A stretch of DNA of 64,000 nucleotides. Origin: Clostridia bacterium (GTDB taxonomy: Bacteria; Bacillota; Clostridia; RGIG7378). The notes under the pieces were generated by a model. The model searched no databases. It worked only from the letters and a program-made list of their open reading frames with translations, and was not told where the DNA came from. The position numbers were made by a program, and so were the translations under genes. Shown in pieces: positions 6,712 to 9,513 of this stretch. The DNA lies in contig JAFYSJ010000031.1 of NCBI GenBank assembly GCA_017559445.1, forward strand, positions 1 through 64,000. Reading direction: 5' to 3'. Each line of letters starts with the position of its first letter. Position 1 is the first letter of the stretch.

Positions 6712-6738
6712 TTAGCACTCACCTCGGTCGAGTGCTAA
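6712..6738 (-). promoter_or_regulatory. CIRCE operator (HrcA binding site)
   Basis: TTAGCACTC at 6712-6720 and GAGTGCTAA at 6730-6738 form the exact CIRCE consensus with the standard 9-bp spacer. It sits between the -10 box and the hrcA start, so bound HrcA would block transcription of the whole hrcA-grpE-dnaK-dnaJ-prmA-yfiH operon. Confidence 0.97.
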
Positions 6739-6906: not shown

Positions 6907-6914
6907 GTTATAAT
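6907..6914 (+). promoter_or_regulatory. Extended -10 promoter of the argJ-like gene
   Basis: TGTTATAAT is an extended -10 element (TGnTATAAT). It lies 35 bp before the ATG of the ArgJ-like gene, which has its own ribosome site GAGGTGG. No clear -35 is seen, which is common for extended -10 promoters. Confidence 0.55.
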
Positions 6915-6949
6915 AGGGGGATAGAAAAAGAAGTACGAGGTGGTTCTTT

Positions 6950-8116
6950 ATGCAGATTAAGTTAATTGATGGCGGTGTAGTTGCACCAGAGGGCTTTTTT
7001 GCCTCCGGTATTGCAACTGGTATTAAGCCAAATGATGTAAATGATTTTGCACTTGTTTGCTCTGACGACACAGCAGCAGCTGCTGGCGTTTTTTCTGGAC
7101 TCAATGTTCGTAGCAATTCCACTAAAGTGGTTATGGAGAATATCGCAAATGGTTACGCAAACGCTATTGTAGTTAACAGTGGCAATGCTAATGCATGTAA
7201 CGGCCAGCAGGGCGTTGCAGATGCTAAGCATATTTGCTCCCTTGTAGCTGAGCAGCTTGGTTGTGAGGCAGATGACGTTCTCTTCCTCTCCACTGGTGTT
7301 ATGGGCAAGGCTCTTCCCATGGATAATCTCACAGCTTCTGTTGAGACACTTGTTGGTAACATGTCTGACAGCGGCAACCTTGATGCTATTGATGCAATCA
7401 TGACATGCGACACTCGTCGTAAGGAGTATGCAGCAGAGTTCAAGCTTCAGGATGAGACAGTTCGCGTTGGCGTTATGGTTAAGGGTTCTGGTATCTACTA
7501 TCCTCTCATGGGTGGTATAACAGTTATCATCACAACAGACGTTAACATTTCTAAGGCACTTCTTCAGAAGTCCATTGAAACTGTAGTAGCTAAGACATTC
7601 GCTAAGATTTCCGTAGATGGTAAGCTTAACGCTTACGAGGCAGTTGTTGCACTTGCTAACGGCCAGGCAGATAACTCTGGCGTAGTTGCACAGGACAACG
7701 CATACGACAGCTTCACAAACGTTCTTCAGTACCTTTGCTCCAACCTTTGCAAGGATCTCGTTAGAGACTGCGAGAGTGGCAAGTTCGTTGAGGTTACAGT
7801 TAAGAACGCTACTACACAGGAGCAGGCACTTGAGCTCGCAAATGCAATTGCTGGTTCTAACGCTTTCAAGGAGGATCTTTCTGAGGGCATCTGCGATGTA
7901 AGCAGCATCGTTAATGCTATTAACGGTTCCAACGTAGAGATTACAGACTCCATGCTTGATGTATTCCTTGGAGATGTACAGATTCTCAGAGCTGGTAGCG
8001 TAGCAGATTACGAGGACGAGCAGGTTGCTGAGATTCTTTCCAAGAACTCTGTAGCACTTACTGTTGTTGTATCTACTGGCACATGCACAGACAAGGTACT
8101 TGCTAGCTTGTATTAA
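6950..8116 (+). CDS. ArgJ-like protein lacking the autocleavage nucleophile
   Basis: A 388-residue protein of the ArgJ (ornithine acetyltransferase / N-acetylglutamate synthase) family. The family sequence VNSGNANACNG is at about residues 75-85 and KGSG at 178-181. ArgJ precursors cut themselves between Ala and Thr in a PNMATML-like motif, and that Thr is the catalytic nucleophile. Here the aligned stretch is PLMGGIT (185-191), so Ala-Thr reads Gly-Gly. The downstream DGDTSTND-type motif is DGKLNAYE (223-230), and the usual ...YVKINADYRT C-terminus is missing. The reading frame is intact, with a good promoter, ribosome site and terminator, and there are no arg genes nearby. It is probably an expressed paralogue without classical ArgJ activity; annotating it as ArgJ would be unsafe. 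Confidence 0.75.
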   Translation: MQIKLIDGGVVAPEGFFASGIATGIKPNDVNDFALVCSDDTAAAAGVFSGLNVRSNSTKVVMENIANGYANAIVVNSGNANACNGQQGVADAKHICSLVAEQLGCEADDVLFLSTGVMGKALPMDNLTASVETLVGNMSDSGNLDAIDAIMTCDTRRKEYAAEFKLQDETVRVGVMVKGSGIYYPLMGGITVIITTDVNISKALLQKSIETVVAKTFAKISVDGKLNAYEAVVALANGQADNSGVVAQDNAYDSFTNVLQYLCSNLCKDLVRDCESGKFVEVTVKNATTQEQALELANAIAGSNAFKEDLSEGICDVSSIVNAINGSNVEITDSMLDVFLGDVQILRAGSVADYEDEQVAEILSKNSVALTVVVSTGTCTDKVLASLY

Positions 8117-8141: not shown

Positions 8142-8171
8142 AATCACCATATCCAATCGGGTATGGTGATT
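8142..8171. terminator. Bidirectional terminator after the argJ-like gene
   Basis: AATCACCATA (8142-8151) pairs with TATGGTGATT (8162-8171), followed by TTTGTT on the plus strand. It separates the plus-strand argJ-like gene from the converging minus-strand DUF4279 gene and may serve both. Confidence 0.7.
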
Positions 8172-9057: not shown

Positions 9058-9312
9058 TTAATCAACCTTTTCTATTAGAAGCTCTTTGCCTTCTTGTTTT
9101 GTAAAAAAACTATCATAATGAATATGACTTCCCTCTGGCAGGTCATTATATGCCATATACAACATCTGTTTTGCTATTGCGATTAAGCCCTCCCTATTAG
9201 CAGATAAACCAACTTCTCCATCATAGACCGTTATCCTACACTTAGAATTTTCATCCCAAATCACATCAATACCATTGCCATCATAATCCGGAAGTTCAAT
9301 TACTATCTTCAT
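9058..9312 (-). CDS. Imm32-like small protein
   Basis: An 84-residue protein with the pattern of immunity protein Imm32: VGLSANREGLIAIAKQML (about residues 34-51), then GSHIHYDSFF near the C-terminus. Imm32-type proteins are predicted to neutralise polymorphic toxins. The start is placed at the ATG with GAAAGG ten bases upstream; an ATG seven codons earlier is possible but has only a weak ribosome site. First gene of the three-gene unit; no toxin with a delivery domain lies in the window. Confidence 0.6.
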   Translation of the reverse strand: MKIVIELPDYDGNGIDVIWDENSKCRITVYDGEVGLSANREGLIAIAKQMLYMAYNDLPEGSHIHYDSFFTKQEGKELLIEKVD

Positions 9313-9513
9313 AATAAAGTACCTTTCAAACATTTCTCTGCTTTAATGCTCTAAATTCATCGCATCTAAAACTTACTACTTCACAGTACTTATACACCTA
9401 TAATCTTGCCATATCCATGCCAAATTTCAATGGACTTGCGCAAAAATTTCGTGTTTTCTTCGTGCTTCTTTCGTGTTTTCATAAGAAACATGTGCTTTTT
9501 GGGGTGAAACAAC

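Follow-up and report, generated by a model that had tools for sequence, protein, structure and literature searches.

An hrcA-adjacent ArgJ-fold protein without the self-cleavage nucleophile, conserved in two species of Clostridia

The question raised by this locus is what remains of an ArgJ, and what such a protein could be kept for, once the nucleophile has been lost. ArgJ activity depends on self-cleavage, the same threonine cutting the chain and carrying the acetyl group, and the C-terminal tail of the protein completes the active site. The gene considered here (the paralogue gene below) lies in a stretch of 64,000 nucleotides from a Clostridia bacterium of the gut, referred to as the window, together with the following signals:

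6712 to 6738, no strand: perfect CIRCE element, TTAGCACTC-N9-GAGTGCTAA, between hrcA and the paralogue gene, conserved in the sister species
6908 to 6916 (within 1-2 bases), + strand: extended –10 element TGTTATAAT (TGnTATAAT), in the sister species TGCTATAAT
6937 to 6945 (within 1-2 bases), + strand: ribosome-binding site GAGGTGG, kept in the sister species
6950 to 8116, + strand: gene of the nucleophile-less ArgJ-fold protein, ATG start, TAA stop, 388 amino acids, frame intact
8142 to 8171, + strand: intrinsic terminator hairpin, stem of 13 pairs followed by a T-rich tail

The promoter, ribosome site, intact frame and terminator described in a first-pass annotation of this DNA are all present, the first two being conserved in the sister species; a simple –35/–10 scan did not detect the extended –10 element. 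The gene is solitary and transcribed away from hrcA-grpE-dnaK-dnaJ-prmA, with its own extended –10 element and ribosome site, while the CIRCE element, located closer to hrcA and upstream of the hrcA-grpE-dnaK-dnaJ cluster, likely has hrcA as its target. The gene had also been described as standing away from arginine genes, among which an argJ usually, though not necessarily, lies, and indeed its neighbour is hrcA. A search for a second, canonical argJ had been proposed, and an intact one (motifs DGDTSTND, PNMATML and NGDYRT) is found elsewhere in the host genome (1.68 Mb in 40 contigs), within the complete, separate operon argG-argH-argC-argJ-argB-argD-argF. In the same assembly, rplP (L16) carries an in-frame TGA near the ninth codon (KRVK-TGA-RKVQRG; G000:C36:18960-19346, L094; L095 near 9308-9330), possibly an assembly error or a strain variant.

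The protein belongs to the ArgJ family, as the PF01960 (ArgJ) profile matches residues 18-384 with 279.6 bits against a cut-off of 32, and it falls short of both NCBIfam ArgJ equivalog models (284.3 against 351 and 253.8 against 298 bits). Alignment with 44 intact ArgJs locates its main motifs as follows:

7481 to 7492, + strand: KGSG, residues 178-181, retained; Lys178 corresponds to Lys189 of Mycobacterium tuberculosis (Mtb) ArgJ
7502 to 7522, + strand: PLMGGIT, residues 185-191, the former self-cleavage site, with Gly189 in place of the nucleophile Thr
7616 to 7639, + strand: DGKLNAYE, residues 223-230, replacing DGDTS(T/V)(N/C)D
7766 to 7786, + strand: DCESGKF, residues 273-279, replacing DGEGATK; Glu275 (Mtb Glu280) retained

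In addition, DANWGR is changed to ICDVSS and the last dozen residues, with the C-terminal NG(S/D)YR(S/T), are missing; the alpha-half motifs VNSGNANACNG, STG and KGSG are retained. Of 110 near-invariant columns (conserved in at least 90% of the intact ArgJs), 64 are retained and 46 altered, the latter mostly in the beta half (36 of 64, against 10 of 46 in the alpha half). The losses of the nucleophile, DGDTS, NWGR and C-terminus are common to both species. The first-pass annotation had recognized the replaced DGDTSTND-type motif, the absent C-terminus and the kept VNSGNANACNG and KGSG, all of which the alignment bears out, and the losses of DGEGATK and DANWGR come in addition. Its further statement that both residues at the scissile bond differ holds for Thr189Gly; the change from Ala to Gly is ordinary, because several intact ArgJs have Gly before the Thr (PNMGTM/PDMGTM in L014, L018, L021, L023 and L026), so that only Thr189Gly is diagnostic.

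The AlphaFold2 model, built on a 46-row alignment, has a complete, single-chain ArgJ fold (pLDDT 91.3, pTM 0.90), the only stretch below pLDDT 50 being residues 182-187, immediately before the former cut. The top Foldseek match is OAT2 (1vz6) over the full length (383 columns, E 4.5e-33, TM 0.85), followed by other ArgJ chains and then, at low similarity, by uncleaved ThnT/BapA precursors. That self-cleavage persists in a shifted register, with Thr191 as the nucleophile, is very improbable: this residue is conserved in both species two positions from the usual site, and model confidence is low only in the adjoining loop 182-187, but the alignment that had been proposed as a check puts Gly189 in the nucleophile column and Thr191 two residues downstream, opposite a Leu/Ile of ArgJ where a strand begins, and none of the other losses would be compensated.

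What is left of the pocket can be judged against Mtb ArgJ, in which ornithine is bound, in the complex 3it6, by Thr166, Lys189, Thr200, Glu280 and the C-terminal Asn399 and Thr404, with Thr127-Gly128 forming the oxyanion hole. T127, G128, T166, K189 and E280 are all retained in the alignment, as T115, G116, T152, K178 and E275, and Thr200 is aligned with Gly189. The self-cut of the Mtb enzyme takes place at the Ala199/Thr200 bond (PMC5887547). With the nucleophile Thr gone and the tail missing, cleavage at the usual bond and a Thr acyl-enzyme should be impossible, and part of the pocket remains; the protein is thus predicted to stay a single chain, unable to transfer acetyl.

The order is sampled by two genomes, the host (G000) and a sister species (G001), a contig of which matches JAFVXO010000002.1 ('Clostridia bacterium isolate RGIG5486', sheep colon). 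The sister species has, in addition to its own canonical argJ, an orthologue at the same site beside hrcA, with the same Gly-Gly and 84% identity, the genes downstream not being the same in the two genomes. Residues 181-210, which include the lost cleavage site, are identical at 29 of 30 positions, and residues 271-388 are more relaxed. The dN/dS values between host and sister species, rough because synonymous sites are near saturation, are 0.056 for the paralogue, 0.053 for argJ, 0.049 for hrcA and 0.056 for argB, and the paralogue is under purifying selection equal to that on argJ. A pseudogene, or an artefact of annotation or assembly, as the loss of catalytic motifs might suggest, is refuted by the argJ-like dN/dS, and does not fit an intact frame with conserved synteny and promoter, found at the same place in a separately assembled species with 84% identity. 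Relative to the ribosomal-protein genes of the host, the codon adaptation index (CAI) of the paralogue is 0.796 (argJ 0.711, rplB 0.812, dnaK 0.872), the third highest among 48 ORFs in the window, from which the protein can be inferred to be highly expressed.

A third ArgJ match in the sister species, at a contig end (G001:C43:22856-22948, L033), repeats the final 31 codons of the paralogue gene almost unchanged, followed by other DNA. It was considered as a second copy and rejected: the match is to the 3' terminus of that one gene, and the differing downstream DNA points to strain variation or assembly.

As to the origin of the protein, in the maximum-likelihood tree the pair of orthologues sits on a stem of 2.23 substitutions per site, with tips of 0.12 and 0.07, and its nearest rows are SVCD-type ArgJs of other Clostridia families (about 40% identity) and not the STND-type ArgJ of its own genome. 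A recent duplication of the resident argJ was rejected, as a tree constrained to join the pair to the argJs of the two genomes is 66 log units worse (p-AU 3.4e-6, in a test that carries the same possible long-branch bias as the tree model). The earlier designation as an ArgJ paralogue therefore stands in the sense of a second ArgJ-family protein, not of a duplicate of the host argJ. The simplest reading that we infer is that an ancestral ArgJ was displaced by the ArgJ of the operon, changed rapidly and was then fixed: an older SVCD-type ArgJ would have become redundant once the arginine operon gained an STND-type enzyme, and would then have undergone a burst of change before becoming fixed in a new function. 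These results also bear on the idea of a regulatory subunit that co-assembles with or controls canonical ArgJ, which would fit the maintenance of both proteins in both genomes, the oligomeric (A2B2) nature of ArgJ (PMC5887547) and the retained fold of the paralogue; it is nonetheless improbable, as the two proteins are of different ArgJ types with only about 34% identity, their genes lie apart, and from codon usage the paralogue is predicted to be more abundant than ArgJ.

Among 391 genomes of the class, no match above 315 bits occurs outside the genus, and a scan of genome contigs with exact 8-residue patterns, which divergent copies would escape, found only the sister species. In most genomes with two ArgJ matches in the class and phylum samples, the genes are split, truncated or at a contig end. 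Only G172 and G580 have a further full-length copy, which is degenerate in G172 and, in G580, intact (PNMATML and DGDTSTND) and beside the normal one (G580:C59:17277-18431, L088). In G723, a 239-amino-acid ArgJ remnant without nucleophile (G723:C1:1186329-1186787, L087) lies between argC-like and argB-like genes, the usual argJ site, and is the only ArgJ match in that genome.

The degenerate copy of G172 belongs to family f10, in which G047 has a single intact ArgJ adjoining a thioredoxin-domain gene. At this spot, G172 and G391 have orthologous copies (78% identity to each other) from which the whole KGSG-PNMAT loop is deleted and STG is also lost, with an STND-type ArgJ elsewhere, complete in G172 and a partial match at a contig end in G391. 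In both genomes the next genes encode a type III pantothenate kinase-like protein and a membrane protein (G172:C23:11189-12298, L068/L074; G391:C55, L075). Because these copies share only 28% identity with the paralogue and have lost different parts, the two degenerations are independent, and there is at least one further case of an ArgJ without cleavage site.

The paralogue has lost catalytic motifs and yet is maintained by selection, which marks it, as far as can be judged from its sequence, as a constrained ArgJ-fold pseudoenzyme, and since it is preserved as strictly as a real enzyme it probably has a different job from ArgJ. The initial proposal of an expressed, uncleaved protein with another role is favoured by the argJ-like dN/dS, the high CAI, the full fold, the lost nucleophile and C-terminus and the argJ elsewhere, expression and non-cleavage being predictions. 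The best explanation, put forward tentatively and at somewhat less than an even chance, is that of an abundant, uncleaved ArgJ-fold pseudoenzyme, left after the STND-type takeover and still binding an amino-acid-like ligand. The ligand of the kept pocket residues would be an acylated amino acid or one resembling glutamate or ornithine, bound without turnover, and the ligand-bound protein could act as a sensor, a buffer or a regulatory partner. Retention of ligand binding is most likely because the oxyanion Thr-Gly, Thr152, Lys178 and Glu275 are kept, whereas the f10 copy has lost STG and KGSG too, although this conservation is weakly tested with only two orthologues known, and binding may have been changed or abolished by the loss of the C-terminal contacts (Mtb Asn399/Thr404) and the alteration of the YYPLM loop.

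Codon usage at ribosomal-protein level is as compatible with an enzyme as with a binder. A new hydrolase or acyltransferase that reuses pocket and oxyanion hole without self-cleavage, through another nucleophile (e.g., Cys153, next to Thr152) or none, is an unlikely alternative. Cys153, Cys274 and Cys315 occur in none of the 44 intact ArgJs and are kept in both species, and the oxyanion Thr-Gly, Lys178 and a codon usage like that of highly expressed enzymes agree with it; against it, the protein no longer has the catalytic Thr, NWGR or the C-terminal tail, and Cys274 may be neutral, its position being variable in ArgJ (Ala in Mtb). A broader proposal, which we regard as rather doubtful, is a new class of single-chain, cleavage-independent ArgJ-fold proteins that evolved repeatedly on takeover by a second ArgJ, abundant in the present case and serving as N-acyl amino acid sensor or buffer or as Cys-nucleophile enzyme.

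The open-access literature, to which the search was confined, yielded no description of an ArgJ that is cleavage-dead by nature or of an ArgJ pseudoenzyme. A Pfam match alone could lead automatic annotation to name such a protein 'ArgJ'. The constrained, highly codon-adapted paralogue without nucleophile suggests a use of this fold apart from acetyl transfer, and could illustrate how displacement by another ArgJ type turns an enzyme into a pseudoenzyme.

Among known systems, the ArgJ ornithine acetyltransferases, bifunctional or monofunctional (PF01960, TIGR00120; solved structures 1vra, 3it4), share with the paralogue the fold, VNSGNANAC, STG, KGSG and five pocket residues, but have the nucleophile Thr, DGDTS, DGEGATK, DANWGR and NGxYR, all of which it lacks. 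OAT2/ORF6 of Streptomyces clavuligerus (1vz6), which acts in clavulanate biosynthesis, is likewise a second ArgJ-type protein beside a housekeeping one, but it is cleaved and active, whereas the paralogue is without nucleophile. The uncleaved precursor mutants of ThnT/BapA (4ihe, 3s3u, 3n5i) are single chains of DmpA/ArgJ-like fold with the nucleophile replaced; they are, however, laboratory mutants with a remote fold likeness only (11-12% identity, TM about 0.45). Finally, the degenerate ArgJs of G172 and G391 (L068/L075) resemble the paralogue in having no cleavage motif and another ArgJ elsewhere in the genome, and differ from it in the loop deletion, the lost STG and their decay at the resident ArgJ locus of family f10.
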